A stretch of 40,821 nucleotides of DNA from Desulfobacteraceae bacterium (GTDB lineage Bacteria; Desulfobacterota; Desulfobacteria; Desulfobacterales; UBA2174), in assembly GCA_028700185.1 (NCBI GenBank), contig JAQVTF010000010.1, forward strand, positions 1-40,821. Reading direction: 5' to 3'. A program made the translations under genes and the position numbers. Positions within the stretch are counted from its first letter, which is position 1. Each line of letters starts with the position of its first letter. Under the pieces are notes generated by a model. The model did no database searches and had not been told where the DNA came from. It worked only from the letters and a program-made list of their open reading frames with translations. Below, in pieces: positions 20,333-33,512 of the stretch.

Positions 20333-22414
20333 CTATTGCCCGGCGGGCTTGTACCCCATGGGCAGTTTTTTGAACCGGCCGCCGTGGAGGATGGGATCCC
20401 CCTCGTAGCCCAGGGCCTTGAAGTCGATGTAGTCGGTGGTGTTGATCAGGTGACTCACGTCGCGGCCTTGTTCGACCATCCAGGAAAAGTCGGTTCCTTT
20501 GTGGGCCAGTTTCTTGAAATCCACCTCGCGGCTGTCCTGGTGGCACCGGTCGCAGGTGCGCTCGCCGGCCAGGCTATCGTGGCACTGGACGCAGGACAGG
20601 GCCATCTCGGCGGGCATCACCTCGTGGTCGACGCCCCAGAACATCCAGGTTTCCACCCACTTGTAGTCGCCGCTGTACGGCATACCAGCGGCTTCCATGC
20701 CGTCGGTGATGGCCTTCTGCCAGTCGTAGTTTTTCCAGTAGGCCGTGGTGTCATCCTTGTCCCGGGGAAAGAGGTGGGGCACCAGTAGGTAGCCGTACTT
20801 GGCGTCCACCGGTTGGACCCCCTTCATGATCTTGAACGGCTCAATCCTTGAGTTGGGATCCCTGATGGAGCCCACCGGTTCGGCAATATTGGTCACCGGT
20901 GCGTGGATATCGATGGAATCGCCCAGAAAAACCCGTTTGTAGAACCCGCCGTGCCAGCGATAGACCGGCTTGGCCGATTCGGCCCAGATGAATTCTCCCT
21001 TCATGGGATCATAATCGCCCATCCCATACTTGTCCTTCTTGGGCTTGCGCTTGAGATCACCAGCCTTGGACCAGTCCCACCAGACCTTGGTGGGCTTGCA
21101 CTTGGCATACACCGGCGAGTGGCAGGTGTTGCAACCGATGTTTTCGCAGTGCTTGTTGAGATGGTGGTCCATGATGTCGTTGCCGTAGTGGGGCTTTGCG
21201 CCGTGGCAGTCCTCGCAGTTCAGGGCGCCCTCCACCACCGGCACCGACGATGAGCGACCGGGAATGCGGTGGTTGCGGGTGGTATGACATTCACTGCACT
21301 GCATGTCGTAGCCGCCCATGTGCACGTCGCAGGCCCGGTCGGGCTGCAGGAGCTGGCGGGAGAGGTCCGAGTGCTTCACCGCCTCGGCGCCGCCGCCGTT
21401 GAAGTGGCATTCCCCGCAAGTCTTGCGGGAGCTGTGCCCCACATTCTGGGCCACCCGGACCAGGTCCACCTTGGGATCGGGCATACCGGCCCCCGGCGGG
21501 GCTTTTTTATAGGTTCCCGTGGTGTCGTGACAGATCAGGCAGTCGATGCGGGTGGCATCGGTGAAATCGAAGGAGTTGTCTTTCCATCCGTATCCGGCGT
21601 GGCAGCTTGTGCAACGAGCCTCGTTGCTGATGGGGCTCATTCAGAAGTTGTTGATGGCGGTGGTCCCCTTGCCGTGCATCACCTTCTTTTGGTGGTCGAG
21701 GGTGTAGGCGGAATGCCCCTTCCAGAGCCAGTGGGCGGTGAGAAGCATGTCCTCGCCGGCGCCCGGGTGGCAGCGGAGGCATTCGGCCGTCACGTCCCAG
21801 GGTTCGGGATCGGCCGGCAGTTTCACCAGTTCCTTGTGGTCCGGCACGTTTTTGGGGTGGCAGCCGACGCAGTCCACCGGTCCTTTGGCCTCGTTGCGGT
21901 GACAATCGATGCACTGCTGGTGATAGGCCGCCTTGAGTCCAAGGCGATCCGGGTGGTCGCCGCGAAACGATTCCTGGTGGCAGGCGCTGCAGCGCACGGT
22001 TTCCTTGGCCGCCTTGTCCGCCGGCCTGGCGTGGTGACACACCGCGCAGTCCTGGATCGCGGCGGCGTGCTTGGTGTGCATGAAGCGCACCGGGCCGTAG
22101 TAGTCTTCGCGCTGCTTGATGATGGGGCTGTCCAGCAGGAAGTAGCTGTGGGTGATGTCCTTGACCCCCAGCCCCACGTCGCGCAGCCGTTGCTGGCGGC
22201 AGAGCTGGCACTCGTCCACCACCGCTTCGATGAAGGGCACCACCTCCTTGGCCCGCTCCCGGGCCGTTTCCTGGTCCGGGGCCCGCCATTCGGGGTTGAG
22301 CGTCAGCTCGTCGGTGTCCGGAGTTTCGGCCGCCAACGCCGGAGCGGCCCATACCAGCACCATTAGTGCCACCAGGATGCGCACCGGTGCGCCGGGTGAA
22401 AACGCTCTGATCAT
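20333..22414 (-). CDS. Octaheme tetrathionate reductase-like multiheme cytochrome c with N-terminal c3-like tetraheme domain; read through an in-frame UGA (candidate selenocysteine at 21641-21643). Called naively as two ORFs, 21641-22414 and 20333-21640
   Basis: Both ORFs in same frame separated only by TGA; 5 + 8 CxxCH motifs; signal peptide only on the upstream part; 'GTTAINNF-U-MSPISNEARCTSCHAGYGWKDNSFDFTDATRIDCLICHDTTGTYKK'. Confidence 0.82.
21611..21643 (-). promoter_or_regulatory. Candidate bacterial SECIS hairpin and its UGA codon
   Basis: mRNA: UGA-AUGAGCCCCAUCA-GCAACGA-GGC-UCGUUGC. Perfect 7-bp stem (21611-21617 / 21621-21627), G first in loop, loop begins 20 nt after UGA. Confidence 0.68.
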
Positions 22415-23616
22415 GAAGACACCTCCCGGGCCGGCGCGGAAAGAACCGGCAGATGAGTCACGAGAAAACGGTAGATGAACATCAAGGTGGCGATCAGCCC
22501 CACGGTGATGAGGATTTCGCCCACGGCTGGAAAATAGTTGGCTTCGCTCACCGGCGGCTTGTAGGCCACCACGAAGACGTTGATCCGGTTGAGCAGCACG
22601 CCGCCCACGATCATGGCACAGGCGGCGAACAGGGCCCGCCGGTTGTGGCGCACCTTGTCCGAAAGCAGCATCAGCCAGGGGGCGATGACCCCCAGGATCA
22701 TCTCGGCCAGGAAGGCGTTGGTCTGGGCCGTGCCGTCCAGCAGGTAGACCCAGGTGCCGCGCACCACCATGTCACCGATCTTCAGTGCCATGTAGAGGCC
22801 CAGCAGCCAGATGGTGATGCGGGTCAACGGCCCCAGGACGCGCATCTCCCCGTCGAGCTTGAACGAACTGGTGGCGATGGTGGTCTCGAAGACCACCATG
22901 GGGTAGCCCACCGCGATGGCCGAAGTGAGAAAGAGCAGGGGCAGGATCGGGGTGTACCAGAGGGGATGAACCTTGGTGGGGGCCACCAGCATCAGCGAGC
23001 CGAGGCTCGACTGGTGCATGCACGAGAGCACCACCCCGGCGATGACGAAGACCCACATGATCTTGCCCAGAACGCGGTCGGCCAGGCCCAGCAGGGATTC
23101 CGCCGGGCCGTTGAGCCCCGCCAGGGGGCCGGGCAGGTTGACGCGGCCCTTGAACTGTTCCACCACCACCGGCACGAACTCGATGTAGAGCACGTTGAGG
23201 TAGAACATCACGCACATGGCCACTTCGAAGAGCACCGAGTCGAAGTTCCAGAAGATCATCGGCTTCCAGATGGCCCAGGAGCGGCCGATGTCGATGAGCA
23301 GGCCCAGCACGACGAAGGTGTAACCGAGCATGGCGGTGAGCAGGGCCGGGCGCACCACTGGCTCGTAGTAGTGCCGGCCCACGATGTGCGCCAGGAAGGC
23401 GGTGGTGAACCCGCCGGCGGCCAGGGCGACTCCCGAGGCGACATCCACCCCGATCCACAGCCCCCAGGGGCGGGCCGTGGACAGGTTGGACACGTAGCCG
23501 ATGCCGCCGATGAAGCGGGCCAGGATGGTCAGGGCGCCGGCGGCCATCAGCACGGCCAGTACCACGACCCCGGGTGTCCAGAAGCGGGTCTTGAGCGGAT
23601 AGGGATGATGGGTCAT
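22411..23616 (-). CDS. nrfD: NrfD/PsrC-type polysulfide reductase membrane subunit
   Basis: Multi-TM; '[41 protein letters not shown]', '[47 protein letters not shown]' typical of HybB/NrfD family. ATG at 23616. Confidence 0.92.
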
Positions 23617-24530
23617 CGGCGGTCTCCTTCCTCGTCTTCGTCCTCGGCCCGGTTCTTGTGCGAGGTCCACATGATCCCCCCCAGCAGGCCGTAGAGCACG
23701 ATGGGCGACCAGAGGTAGGAAAAGAGGGTGTGCTGAATCGTCTCGGCCAGTTTGGGGGTCGGCTCGTTGGGCACGTCGATGAAACCGAGCTTCTCGAAGG
23801 GCACCGCCGAAATGTACATCCAGCTCGTTCCCCCCACCTCCTTCTCACCGTAGATGCGGTCGATATAACGTGCCGGGTTGTCCCGTATCCGGTCCTTGGC
23901 CACCTTGAGCAGGGTCTGGCGTCGACCGAAGGTGATGGCCTCGGTGGGGCAGATCTCGGCGCAGCCCGGCAGGCCCCCCTCCTTGCTGATGCGCTCGAAG
24001 CAGAAGGTGCACTTCATCACCCGGGGGGTGATGGGGTCATGGTACTCGTAGGCCGGGATCTCGAAGGGGCAGGCCACCATGCAGTAGCGGCAACCGATGC
24101 ACTTGGTGACATCGTAGTGGACCGTGCCGTTTTCCTTCTTGGTCAAGGCGCCGACGATGCAGGCCGATGCGCAGGCCGGCTCCTGGCAGTGCATGCACTG
24201 GATCTTGACGAAGGTGGGCACCAGTTGGTTGCTGGCGTCCAATTGGCCGGGAAAGTAGCGGTTGACCACCGTGAAGGCCTTCTCGTCGGGCCGGCGCAGG
24301 CGGTTCAGGACGGTGGGGTCCTCGAAGGGCTCCTCGGGCGGCGGCAGACCGTTGACCCGGTTGCAGGCCTCTTCGCATTTGCGGCAGCCGATGCAGCGGG
24401 TCAGGTCCACCAGGCAGCCGTAGGGATCATCCGGTGGGGCCGATGCGCCGGCCGGGGCGGATCGATTCGTTGCCGCCGCGGCCCCGGTAGCCCCCGCGAT
24501 CTTGAAAAACCCGCGTCTTGTCAGCTTCAT
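23613..24530 (-). CDS. Tat-signal 4Fe-4S ferredoxin subunit (HybA/DsrO-like) with C-terminal TM segment
   Basis: [20 protein letters not shown] Tat signal; [71 protein letters not shown] at 24530. Confidence 0.92.
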
Positions 24531-24766
24531 GGGCACTCCTTGTGTCGTTGAACCGTGATCCACATGACTTTGCCTTCCCGATGCTCGCCGAGGATGCGAT
24601 TGCGCTGACGCCGGGCCAACTGGAGGATGGTGGCGGCCACCTCGGGGTCTTCGAGCTGCACTTTCAGCACTTCCCCGGGCGCAAGACGGGAGAGCCGCTG
24701 CTGGTATTGCAACAGGCAGATCGGCCACCCGACCCCCACCAGGTTGAGTTGGTGCGATGCACGCAA
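24527..24766 (-). CDS. TusA/SirA-like small protein with non-canonical active site (79 aa; TTG start)
   Basis: [53 protein letters not shown] follows the TusA fold pattern; SD gggagg upstream of TTG 24766; stop overlaps the next ATG. Confidence 0.65.
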
Positions 24767-24806
24767 AACAATCGCCTCCCTTGCATGCCGTCCATCTAGA
24801 GCCCAT

Positions 24807-24822
24807 AGCAAGCTCCGTGCCG
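24807..24822 (-). promoter_or_regulatory. Sigma-54 (-24/-12) promoter of the TusA-FeS-NrfD-cytochrome operon
   Basis: Minus strand CGGCACGGAGCTTGCT: GG-N10-GC spacing, close to TGGCACN5TTGCW; about 40 nt upstream of the TTG start. Confidence 0.72.
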
Positions 24823-24930
24823 CCGCTCAGATCGGATTTCCCTCGAATCAACCGCTTGAAATGATAACGGATTCAAATATGCTCAGGCCAGCCATTGTCA
24901 AAGGACGGCCGCTGTTGTAGTTAAAGGATC

Positions 24931-24946
24931 GTTTAAACGTTTAAAC
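24931..24946. promoter_or_regulatory. 16-bp perfect palindrome, candidate enhancer/UAS for the divergent activator
   Basis: gtttaaacgtttaaac, about 110 bp upstream of the sigma-54 element and just before the activator gene. Confidence 0.55.
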
Positions 24947-24966
24947 ACTCATAAGGCGTACAAGCA

Positions 24967-26349
24967 ATGAGCGAAGCGCGGATCAACCGCTACTGGAAGC
25001 GCATCGTCAACACGATGAACGACGGGCTGATGATCATCGGTACCGATGGCACGGTGATTTCCGTCAACCGCGCCTTTGAGCGCATCACCGGCTACTCGGC
25101 TGAAGAGATGGTGGGCCGGCCGTGCACGGTGCTCGAGTGCGACGGTTGCGACAAGATGATCAACGGCAGCGACATGGCCTGGTGCGCCCTGTTTGACAAC
25201 TGCCAGGATGTGCGCTGCCACTGTCACCTGCGCACCAAGGACGGCCGCTTGGTGGCGGTGGTCAAGAACGCCACCTTGCTCGTGGACGACGAAGGGCGCC
25301 CCCTGGGGGCCGTGGAGACCCTCACCGACATGTCGGAGGTGGACCGGCTGGGGCAGGAGGTGGACCGGCTGGCACGCCAGCTCGACGATGGGGGGGATTT
25401 TCACGGCCTGGTGGGCCGCTCGGTGGCCATGCAGCGGGTTTTCGACGTGATCCGGAGAGCGGCCTCGAGCAGCGCGCCGGTGATCATTTTCGGCGAGAGC
25501 GGCACCGGCAAGGAGATGGTGGCCAATGCGATTCACCGCCTCGGGCCGCGGCGCGAGGGCCCCTTCATGCAACTCAACTGCGCGGCCCTCAACGAAGCGC
25601 TGCTGGAAAGCGAACTCTTCGGCCACATCCGCGGCGCCTTCACCGGCGCCTACCGGCATCGCACCGGGCGCTTCGAGGCCGCCGACGGCGGGGACATCTT
25701 CCTGGACGAGATCGGGGACATGCCCCTCGCCCTGCAGGTCAAGCTGCTGCGGGTCCTGGAGACCGGGCGCTTTGAAAGGGTCGGCGACCATGCCCCGGTG
25801 AAGGTCAACGTGCGCATCATCAGCGCCACCCACCAGGACCTGCACCGGGCCATCGCCGAGGGGCGTTTTCGCGAAGACTTCTTCTACCGCATCAATGTGA
25901 TCCCCATCCACCTGCCGCCGCTGCGACAGCGACGCGACGACATCCCGTTGCTGGTGGAGTATTTTCTGCCCGGGGTGCGCCGCCGCGCCGGCAAGAGCCT
26001 TTCGGGAATGACGCGCCAGGCCATGGAGGGGCTGATGAACCACCACTGGCCGGGCAACGTGCGCGAGCTGAAGAGCGTGCTCGAATACGCCGCCATCATC
26101 ACCGACGGCGGCGTCATCGATATCCATCACCTACCGAGTTTGCAGGCGCCGCCGGCCATCGGGCGTTCGGCCTCCACCGCGCCGGCCATGGCGGACGCCC
26201 AAGGCGAACGTCAGGCCCTCATCGACGCCCTGCGGGCCACCGGCGGCAACCAGACCCGGGCCGCGGCGCTCCTCGGGGTCACGCGCACCACGGTCTGGAA
26301 CCGGATCCGCAAGTACGGCATCGATGTGAGGAAGATTCCGGATCGATAG
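24967..26349 (+). CDS. PAS-AAA+-HTH_8 sigma-54-dependent transcriptional regulator
   Basis: GESGTGKEMVANAIH, ELFGHIRGAFTGAYRHRTGRFEAADGGDIFLDEIGDM, Fis-type HTH 'LRATGGNQTRAAALLGVTRTTVWNRIRKYGI'. Confidence 0.95.
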   Translation: MSEARINRYWKRIVNTMNDGLMIIGTDGTVISVNRAFERITGYSAEEMVGRPCTVLECDGCDKMINGSDMAWCALFDNCQDVRCHCHLRTKDGRLVAVVKNATLLVDDEGRPLGAVETLTDMSEVDRLGQEVDRLARQLDDGGDFHGLVGRSVAMQRVFDVIRRAASSSAPVIIFGESGTGKEMVANAIHRLGPRREGPFMQLNCAALNEALLESELFGHIRGAFTGAYRHRTGRFEAADGGDIFLDEIGDMPLALQVKLLRVLETGRFERVGDHAPVKVNVRIISATHQDLHRAIAEGRFREDFFYRINVIPIHLPPLRQRRDDIPLLVEYFLPGVRRRAGKSLSGMTRQAMEGLMNHHWPGNVRELKSVLEYAAIITDGGVIDIHHLPSLQAPPAIGRSASTAPAMADAQGERQALIDALRATGGNQTRAAALLGVTRTTVWNRIRKYGIDVRKIPDR

Positions 26350-26435
26350 GCGAGAAGACAAAAATGATTTTTATGGCACGTGATTTGCTTCAACCATTTA
26401 AAATACCTCCTGGCAGTTGTAATCATACTGCCGGC

Positions 26436-26544: not shown

Positions 26545-27411
26545 TTGTTGGCAGTAATGTCCATTGATCAGTTTGCGCACATCAACAGAGGAAAGATGAG
26601 CGCCATGACCGGATCGAAACATCAACGAGAAAAGATCCTCCCCGAACAGCCGGCGCGCCAGCCGGAAAAAATATTCCTGACCCCTGCCGAGGCCCTGGCG
26701 GCCATTGGCATCGACTTCGCCCAATACGCACCGCAGATCGAGCTTTTTTGCAATCTTGTCCCCCTGGTTTTCGGGAACCAGGCCCTGGTGACGTCGGGCG
26801 CCACCAGAGATGAATTGTGGCTGCGCATCGGTGCCCGCGGATCTCCGGAACGCCTCGATGGCCGGCAACTCGGTGAACGGCTGGTGGCCCGGCTCCAGGA
26901 AGCACCGTTGCCGCTGGAACGCCTGGCCGCCATCTGCTATCAGGTGTTTCGCGGCCGGACCGTGACGGGTGAAACGGATGGAACCCCCGGGTTGTGGGTG
27001 GAAACGGGGATGGAGGATTTTGTCTGCCAGCGCTGCGGCCGGTGCTGCAGCACGCTGGATTTCAAAAACGGGGGCACCGCGGCGGACTGGGAGCGTTTCG
27101 AGGCATTGGGGCGCAAGGACATCCTGGACTGGATCGCGCCAATCCGGCATGACGGAAGGGTGGTGGCCTGCCGCCTGTGGGTCGATCCGCTCACCGGCCG
27201 TTTTGCCGACGGGTGTCCCTGGCTGGTAAAGGACGCCCCGGGACGCTTTGGCTGCCGGATTCACGAGATCCGGCCCGAGATCTGTCGCCAGTATCCCGGC
27301 TCCCGCAAGCATGCCGAGATGACGGGGTGCATCGGGTTCTGTCACCGCCAAAGAAAGGGAATCAGTCAACAAGAAGCCACATCCGATCCAAGAAAAGTCT
27401 TTCACGGATAA
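26545..27411 (+). CDS. YkgJ family cysteine cluster protein (larger paralogue)
   Basis: EDFVCQRCGRCCSTLDF...DGCPWLVKDAPGRFGCRIHEIRPEICRQYPGSRKHAEMTGCIGFC. A downstream ATG (26596) may be the real start. Confidence 0.82.
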   Translation: MLAVMSIDQFAHINRGKMSAMTGSKHQREKILPEQPARQPEKIFLTPAEALAAIGIDFAQYAPQIELFCNLVPLVFGNQALVTSGATRDELWLRIGARGSPERLDGRQLGERLVARLQEAPLPLERLAAICYQVFRGRTVTGETDGTPGLWVETGMEDFVCQRCGRCCSTLDFKNGGTAADWERFEALGRKDILDWIAPIRHDGRVVACRLWVDPLTGRFADGCPWLVKDAPGRFGCRIHEIRPEICRQYPGSRKHAEMTGCIGFCHRQRKGISQQEATSDPRKVFHG

Positions 27412-31598: not shown

Positions 31599-33512
31599 TC
31601 ACTGTTTCCCGCCGCCGGCGGACGAAACGGGGGAAGCCGGCTGATCGAAGAGGGCGGTCAACACCACGCACCCGTCTTCCAAGTGGGTTTGAACCTTGAA
31701 GGGCAGGTTGTTGAACAACTCGATCATGCGGCGATTTTCGGGCACGGTGTAGGCAGTGAGCCCGTCTAGACCGTTTTCCTGGGCGGCCTGGAACAGCTTG
31801 ACCAGCAACTGTTTCCCGATTCCCTTGCCCTGCCAGGGACGGCTCACCGAAAAAGCGATCTCGGCGATGTTACTGCCCGTCGCACAGAGGTACTCTCCCA
31901 GCCCGATCACTTGGCCGAAGCCGAATTCGCCCACCAGCGCCAGCATGGTGAGGTTGTGAATGTAGTCGATCTGGGCCTTGTCCTCGATTTCGTCCCGGGA
32001 AAAGCGGGATTTGGCATACATGAAGCGGGCGTACACGTCCGCGTTGTCCAGATTGTAGTAATGCTCCTGGATCCGCCGCAGGTCCACCGGTTTGGCCGGG
32101 CGCAGGGTGATGAGCGTGTTGTCGACGGTGATGGCCTCCTCCAGATGCAGCGGATAGATGCCGGTGATGGACTCGCTCAGCTTGCGTTCCCGGCTCAACA
32201 GCCCTTTTTCCTTGGCGGCATTGAACAGGGCTTCGCGAAAATCCGGATGGGCGATGCTGATCATGGCCATGGCCCGCTCTTGCAGGCTTTTGCCATGGAG
32301 GTTGACCGCGCCGAACTCGCTGACCACATGATGCACGTCGGTGCGGGGGACCACGGTCACCGTGTCGCTGAGCAGCGGCACGATATGGCTCTGGGAACCG
32401 TCGGCCGAAGTGGCGGTGAGCATCAGGATCGACTTGCCGCCGTTGGCCTGGGAGGCGCCCCGCACGAAATCCAGCATCCCGTTGACCCCGGAGTAGCGGC
32501 TGTGGGCCAGGGCGTCGGTGGCCACCTGCCCGGTGAGGTCCATCACCATGGCCACGTTCATGGACACCATGCGAGGATGGGCGGAAATGACACCATGGGC
32601 ATTGACGTAATCGGAGGGGTGAAATTCCACCATGGGGTTGTCGTTGATGAACTCGTAAAAAATTTCGGACCCGATGGCGCTGCTGGCCACCATCTTGCCT
32701 TCGTTGAGGCCCTTGTAGCGGTTGTTGACCACCCCCCGGGCCGTCAGGTGCATCAGGCCGGTGGTGAGGTACTGGCTGTGAACGCCCAGGTCGTTTTTTT
32801 CCGCCAGGGCCTCCAACACGGCCTGGTGAATTTCTCCCAAACCGGTCTGGAGCGTGGCGCCGTCTTCCACCAGCCGGGCCACGTGCCGGGCGATGGTGCG
32901 GGCCGCTTCGCTCACCGGCGGTTCTTCCACCGAGAGGATGGGCTCTTCATGCTCGACGATGACATCCAGGTCGTTCACGTGCAAAAAGCTGCGCCCCATC
33001 ACCCGGGGCATGCGCGGGTTGACCTGGGCGATGACCAGATCCGCGCTCAATGCGGCTGCCTGGGTGATGTCCACCGAAACGCCCAAGCTCATCCAGCCGA
33101 AGTCATCCGGGGGGGAGACCTGGATCAGGGCCACCTGGATCTTGAGCTTTCCGGTGGCGAAAAGCCGCGGGATGTCCACCAGGTTCAGCGGTGTGATGTG
33201 GCGCATGGTCTGGGCCAGCCGCTTGGGAATACCCGAACCGATGTAAAAGGATCGGATGTTGAGGTTCCGGTCCGCCGTCTCGTCCGCGATGCGCGACAGC
33301 GGCGTCTGTTCCAGCGACAGCAGCCGGACCACCTCGATGTCCGAAAGCCCCCGGGCCTTCCGGGCCAGGGCACGGACCAACTCCTGGGGTTCACCGCAGG
33401 AGGAGCCGATGAAGACCCGTTGGCCCGGTCGAATCAGGGCGATGGCATCCGCGGCGTCACGGCGCTTCTGGCGGAAGGCGTCCGCCCAGGATGGTGAAAT
33501 CGACATCATCAC
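31599..33512 (-). CDS. Acetyl-CoA hydrolase/CoA-transferase family protein fused to a C-terminal GNAT acetyltransferase domain
   Basis: 'GQRVFIGSSCGEPQELVRAL', 'LQTGLGEIHQAVLEAL...LGVHSQYLTTGLMHLTARGVVNN', C-term GNAT 'RPWQGKGIGKQLLVKLFQAAQENGLDGLTAYTVPENRRMIELFNNL'. Confidence 0.92.
   Translation of the reverse strand: MMMSISPSWADAFRQKRRDAADAIALIRPGQRVFIGSSCGEPQELVRALARKARGLSDIEVVRLLSLEQTPLSRIADETADRNLNIRSFYIGSGIPKRLAQTMRHITPLNLVDIPRLFATGKLKIQVALIQVSPPDDFGWMSLGVSVDITQAAALSADLVIAQVNPRMPRVMGRSFLHVNDLDVIVEHEEPILSVEEPPVSEAARTIARHVARLVEDGATLQTGLGEIHQAVLEALAEKNDLGVHSQYLTTGLMHLTARGVVNNRYKGLNEGKMVASSAIGSEIFYEFINDNPMVEFHPSDYVNAHGVISAHPRMVSMNVAMVMDLTGQVATDALAHSRYSGVNGMLDFVRGASQANGGKSILMLTATSADGSQSHIVPLLSDTVTVVPRTDVHHVVSEFGAVNLHGKSLQERAMAMISIAHPDFREALFNAAKEKGLLSRERKLSESITGIYPLHLEEAITVDNTLITLRPAKPVDLRRIQEHYYNLDNADVYARFMYAKSRFSRDEIEDKAQIDYIHNLTMLALVGEFGFGQVIGLGEYLCATGSNIAEIAFSVSRPWQGKGIGKQLLVKLFQAAQENGLDGLTAYTVPENRRMIELFNNLPFKVQTHLEDGCVVLTALFDQPASPVSSAGGGKQ

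Follow-up and report, generated by a model that had tools for sequence, protein, structure and literature searches.

In Desulfovibrio vulgaris the one-component sigma-54 activator DVU3142 is encoded divergently from ohcBAC, an octaheme cytochrome operon (PMC4641369). Besides the octaheme cytochrome, the ohc operon specifies an iron-sulfur protein and a membrane subunit. A comparison of six Desulfovibrionales genomes predicted a sigma-54 promoter and binding sites in the region between activator and operon (PMC4641369). Small RNAs with sigma-54 promoters adjoin activator genes as well, namely at DVU0679/Dv_sRNA2, DVU0653 and DVU2359 (PMC3333781, PMC4641369). For the sensing side there is NreB, in which a PAS domain with four cysteines holds an O2-labile [4Fe-4S] cluster (PMC4601167).

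The locus described here lies on a stretch of 40,821 nucleotides from a Desulfobacteraceae bacterium, which we call the window. Compared by layout it is like DVU3142/ohc: a divergent one-component activator stands beside an octaheme cytochrome operon that has a sigma-54 promoter. Our best explanation of the whole, to which we give a probability of about 0.88, is that positions 24797-24966 control a redox operon that depends on sigma-54, that the activator works on it by DNA looping, and that a small RNA is a probable second output of the locus. The parts are the following:

20333 to 22414, minus strand: octaheme tetrathionate-reductase-family (OTR) cytochrome c (TIGR04315, 496 bits)
22411 to 23616, minus strand: integral membrane subunit, NrfD/HmcC family (library domains)
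23613 to 24530, minus strand: Tat-exported 4Fe-4S protein, HmcB/HybA-like (library domains), overlapping the TusA-like gene by 4 bp
24527 to 24766, minus strand: TusA-like protein that opens the operon (Pfam TusA at 26.5 bits, slightly short of the cut-off of 28.6)
24807 to 24822, minus strand: sigma-54 promoter of the redox operon, CGGCACGGAGCTTGCT, with the -24 GG at 24821-24820 and the -12 GC at 24809-24808
about 24920 to 24946, no strand: predicted activator operator (upstream activating sequence), consisting of GTTAAAG, a 4-bp spacer, GTTTAAAC and GTTTAAAC
24967 to 26349, plus strand: one-component sigma-54 activator (Pfam domains PAS, Sigma54_activat and HTH_8)
26374 to 26389, plus strand: second sigma-54 promoter, TGGCACGTGATTTGCT, an exact consensus 25 bp past the activator stop codon
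26400 to 26478, plus strand: predicted small RNA of about 80 nt, beginning about 12 bp past the second promoter

The sequence-only reading of this DNA had proposed a GG-N10-GC element on the minus strand just upstream of the operon. It is present at 24822-24807 with ten bases between GG and GC (consensus TGGCAC-N5-TTGC), and CGGCACGGAGCTTGCT differs from TGGCACGNNNNTTGCW in its first base alone. Transcription of the operon would then start near 24796. Within the window the sigma-54 pattern, at up to two mismatches, is found eight times where 7.6 matches are expected, so CGGCACGGAGCTTGCT on its own proves little and we relied on conservation instead. Relatives of the activator and of the octaheme cytochrome were both collected to find orthologous loci. 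This gave 16 activators that have the same operon, or its cytochrome gene, as a neighbour, picked by protein homology and neighbourhood and not by motif. In the 400 bp upstream of these activators, the pattern GG[CT]A[CT]N5[TA]TGC faces the operon in 14 of the 16 regions (shuffled mean 0.29, maximum 3), and a strict sigma-54 promoter faces the activator in none of them. The strict pattern was not matched in L043. The proposed promoter is thus conserved and directional, and the genome encodes RpoN (PF04552, 212 bits).

The same reading had also pointed out a perfect palindrome beside the activator gene, about 110 bp from the promoter. Both statements hold: the 16-bp palindrome GTTTAAACGTTTAAAC is exact at 24931-24946, the promoter spans 24822-24807, and the activator gene lies at 24967-26349. 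At up to three mismatches it is the single match in the window (0.02 expected), and the genome search that had been suggested at the time finds no second copy in the assembly (3.29 Mb) when two mismatches are allowed. Comparison of orthologous loci suggests that the palindrome is two of the three half-sites of a longer operator, because G055 has a three-half-site array, TTTAAAC-AATC-GTTTAAAC-GTTTAAAC, at the same place (L032). This array contains the exact 16-mer and belongs to an activator 69% identical to that of the window, where the first half-site is degenerate (GTTAAAG, 24920-24926). One-mismatch forms of the 16-mer are found at L036, L040, L046 and L050.

Over the upstream 300 bp of the 16 OTR-adjacent regions there are 55 copies of TTTAAAC/GTTTAAA, whereas dinucleotide-preserving shuffles yield 2.2 +/- 1.5 (maximum 7). 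Eleven paralogue regions hold three copies in total. At least two half-sites occur in 15 of the 16 OTR-adjacent regions and the exact 16-mer in G055, so the palindrome is conserved in orthologous intergenic regions; at L045 there are no TTTAAAC half-sites although promoter and OTR gene are present. The position of the array is conserved as well. In the window some 140 bp separate the operator centre from the inferred operon start downstream of it. Of the 14 loci having both elements, 10 show an array-to-start distance of 136-144 bp. The remaining distances are 94, 152, 154 and 220 bp; the value of 94 bp comes from an array that was stretched by a stray match. The near-fixed distance to the operon start also holds where the distance to the activator start varies.

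The activator has an AAA+ domain with GAFTGA (seen in the translation) and a Fis-type HTH, and it lacks a receiver domain. In a maximum-likelihood tree of 52 activators, the window activator groups with that of G055 and the remaining OTR-adjacent activators in an O clade. An S clade stands apart, and each of the two clades has support of 100/99. Five cysteines of the PAS domain (C53, C58, C61, C73 and C86) are invariant in all 33 activators of the two clades. S-clade activators are divergent to another operon, which is likewise opened by a TusA-like gene and continues with TusA, a small redox protein and, where visible, an HdrA-like flavoprotein (named by eye). The divergent order of activator and operon is kept in many Desulfobacterota genomes. 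The half-site is TTTAAAC in the O clade, and S-clade arrays consist of TGTTAA/TGTTCA. That the operator code differs by activator clade points to the neighbouring activator as the binder, and we infer that the adjoining activator binds the TTTAAAC half-sites. The operator is then an activator-specific, conserved site at a near-fixed distance upstream of a sigma-54 promoter, that is, a putative upstream activating sequence.

One could argue that a different regulator, such as a global redox repressor, owns the TTTAAAC array, which would then stand beside the activator by chance. AT-rich dyads with GTTAA/TTAAC cores do resemble the operators of other redox regulators. Yet the array accompanies O-clade activators and is missing at their S-clade paralogues, which carry a TGTTAA array of their own, and it keeps an almost constant distance to the sigma-54 promoter. 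The site at 24931 is also the assembly's single TTTAAAC-N0-6-GTTTAAA pair, unlike what is seen for a global operator. It is therefore very improbable to us that the array belongs elsewhere. We consider it even less probable that the palindrome serves the activator gene alone and that the operon promoter uses another site. Such a role would fit the location of the operator 21-47 bp before the activator start codon. However, at L006, L040 and L047 the array is 77-153 bp from the activator start and yet 138-154 bp from the operon start; the steadiness of the latter distance means that the array keeps its place relative to the operon promoter and not relative to where the activator gene starts. 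Control of the operon by its divergent activator remains our preferred reading, and the enhancer-bound layout that had been recognized earlier is supported by the conserved, directional promoter and by an operator that tracks the activator clade.

Under this reading, the PAS-AAA-HTH_8 activator would occupy the TTTAAAC-type half-sites, become active upon a sulfur or redox signal and reach RNA polymerase-sigma54 by DNA looping, upon which the promoter would open. A signal of this kind is the natural guess, and it would be sensed through the cysteine-rich PAS domain. Since the operator lies so close to the activator start codon, its occupation would probably restrain expression of the activator gene too. 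The operon would then yield a membrane-linked electron-transfer complex with a selenocysteine (Sec)-containing octaheme cytochrome as its catalytic subunit. Its genes are joined by 4-bp overlaps. The TTG start of the TusA-like gene was assigned from the reading frame and an AGGGAGG, and the cytochrome has an extra N-terminal class III (c3-like) cytochrome domain and 13 CXXCH motifs. The TusA-like protein has GWPIC in place of the usual CPxP cysteine, and a similarly degenerate TusA-like gene opens most S-clade operons. Elsewhere in the window (31602-33512, minus strand) a GNAT acetyltransferase domain is fused to an acetyl-CoA hydrolase/transferase.

The cytochrome gene contains one in-frame TGA, at 21643-21641, in an alignment column that otherwise is a nearly invariant cysteine (NNFC). 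In an alignment of the catalytic domain it falls on Cys64 of Shewanella oneidensis OTR (1sp3; residue counted by hand). Many relatives have TGA in this column and the rest nearly all have cysteine; where there is a stop, it is always TGA and never TAA or TAG. The genome encodes tRNA-Sec and SelB. Since TGA stands at a cysteine column in a genome with tRNA-Sec and SelB, we read the cytochrome as a selenoprotein. As to a SECIS hairpin after the TGA, a stem of 8 bp starts at the TGA, but the fold of this region is not more stable than that of shuffled sequence (z 0.06). The selenocysteine form is not new, because a 2026 review already lists the Sec TIGR04315 family as a GenBank-annotated selenoprotein (PMC13188914).

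Absent from the sequence-only reading was the second sigma-54 promoter, at 26374. The RNA predicted to follow it folds into a single-stranded AAAAUACCUCCU, a short hairpin, and a terminator hairpin of 15 bp with a U run, at a folding energy of -38.7 kcal/mol (z -7.6), and leaves ACCUCCU exposed. Judged by sequence alone, a sigma-54 promoter and a terminated short transcript thus adjoin the activator gene in the manner of Dv_sRNA2, and a sigma-54-driven small RNA is a probable candidate for a second output at the locus. Within the window, AGGAGGTA sites are found only in the RNA gene itself and at a DUF3783 gene (27468), where the site is an ordinary Shine-Dalgarno sequence.

A second genome, taken to be of the same genus (G073, UBA2174), keeps the promoter as TGGCATGAAGATTGCT. 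The spacing behind the promoter, the body of the RNA and its terminator are kept as well, the RNA is 90% identical, and the terminator stem has a compensatory change from A-U to G-C. In G073 the syntenic place is taken by an S-clade activator. The OTR operon of G073, 90% identical, stands some 10 kb away from that locus (L113/L002), without the regulator, the TusA-like gene or the sigma-54 site; hence the operon can do without this control. Comparison of these two genomes suggests that an O-clade activator came in together with its operon and took the place of an S-clade activator, ahead of a small-RNA gene that was already there. We also considered the window activator as a chimera with the G073 activator; the identities of the domains show no such break.

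Candidates of a similar kind are found behind other activators. In 390 genomes of the order, the pattern TGGCAY-N5-TTGC-N18-48-ACCTCC has 141 matches compared to 30 for the reversed control (hand sum). Sixteen paralogous activators have a sigma-54 promoter and ACCTCC downstream on the same strand, 13 of them within 100 bp. The corresponding RNAs share CUUGGCA before ACCUCC, an element that lies outside the search pattern, and most candidates fold with a stem and a terminator. The window RNA has position, promoter and ACCUCC in common with these candidates, but not the sequence of the body. A model built on the S-clade RNAs (R1) has four matches in 395 genomes of the phylum, a sample poor in relevant genomes. 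In Rfam nothing credible was found for the window at the gathering score or for 12 small-RNA loci at E 0.1; matches to eukaryotic miRNAs at L136 are noise. A search of 96 genomes for sequences that could pair with the loop of the S-clade RNAs (TGGAGGTAAATGCCAAG), at up to two mismatches, revealed no target: it returned the RNA genes themselves and otherwise counts of the same order as the reversed-pattern control.

Further observations concern these RNAs as a group. ACCUCC-bearing sigma-54 RNA candidates lie behind S-clade activators in many Desulfobacterota (L164-L179 and the places matched by the pattern), with tandem copies at L168, L170 and L172. There are two more apparent families of sigma-54 RNAs, with the hairpins GGAATGAAG..CCTCC..CTTCATTCC and GGAATCAAG..TTGATTCC before CACCTCC, in the genomes G075, G589, G150, G187, G152, G581, G173 and G656, G638, G674, G601.

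A different explanation for the 26374 site would be that it is fortuitous, or that it drives the gene at 26596 by way of a leader, the hairpin being the terminator of the activator gene. The gene at 26596 (CxxCxxCC domain) indeed follows on the same strand, and model R1 matches the window in the promoter part only (positions 1-26) and not in the RNA body. In addition, the activator operator is missing near the 26374 promoter, the only TTTAAAC pair of the assembly being the one at 24931. The S-clade operator is equally absent near the S-clade RNA promoters; therefore control by the neighbouring activator, if there is any, would have to bridge the activator gene by looping. A fortuitous site is difficult to reconcile with an exact consensus, with the promoter, RNA body and compensatory terminator change kept in G073, and with the recurrence of promoter and ACCTCC behind the 16 paralogous activators. 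We therefore regard this explanation as unlikely, though with a share that is well above that of the alternatives for the operator, and retain the small RNA as the probable product of the second promoter.

If the small RNA is real, then sulfur-cycle bacteria would routinely pair sigma-54 activators with anti-Shine-Dalgarno-like RNAs, a new class of regulator. It is conceivable that the locus represents a two-output module of the Desulfobacterota, in which a cysteine-PAS activator drives a divergent sulfur or redox operon (usually with a TusA-like gene first) and a small RNA behind its own gene, whose exposed ACCUCC would block ribosome-binding sites. This proposal is tentative and we place it somewhat short of even odds. 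If true, one sulfur or redox signal would shift transcription and translation together. On the operon side, the octaheme cytochrome genes now have an operator and a promoter that can be put to the test, and the inducer could be found through what fires the promoter. The clade-dependent operator code also allows the prediction of targets across many genomes.

The core layout is known from DVU3142/ohc, and the small-RNA promoter following the activator is the less ordinary part. Unlike in OhcBAC, the membrane subunit of the window is NrfD/HmcC-like and not haem b-containing. Other differences to DVU3142/ohc are that the operon opens with a TusA-like gene, that the cytochrome is a Sec-containing TIGR04315 member with an extra cytochrome c3 domain, and that a sigma-54 small-RNA candidate lies behind the activator. 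Compared to S. oneidensis OTR (1sp3), the window cytochrome has Sec at Cys64 in addition to the extra N-terminal class III cytochrome domain. The cysteine cluster inside the PAS sensor is reminiscent of NreB, and we take C58-x2-C61-x11-C73 to resemble the NreB spacing. The spacing of the fourth ligand differs, however, the sensor is fused to a sigma-54 activator and the cluster is putative. As at Dv_sRNA2/DVU0679, a small-RNA candidate with a sigma-54 promoter stands beside an activator gene, though unlike in that kind of system the RNA promoter has no operator nearby. DVU0679 and DVU0653 are response regulators, whereas the window activator is a one-component protein that also has a divergent operon, and its RNA has an exposed ACCUCC. 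What sets the locus apart from the known systems is that both outputs, the operon and the small-RNA candidate, lie around one activator.
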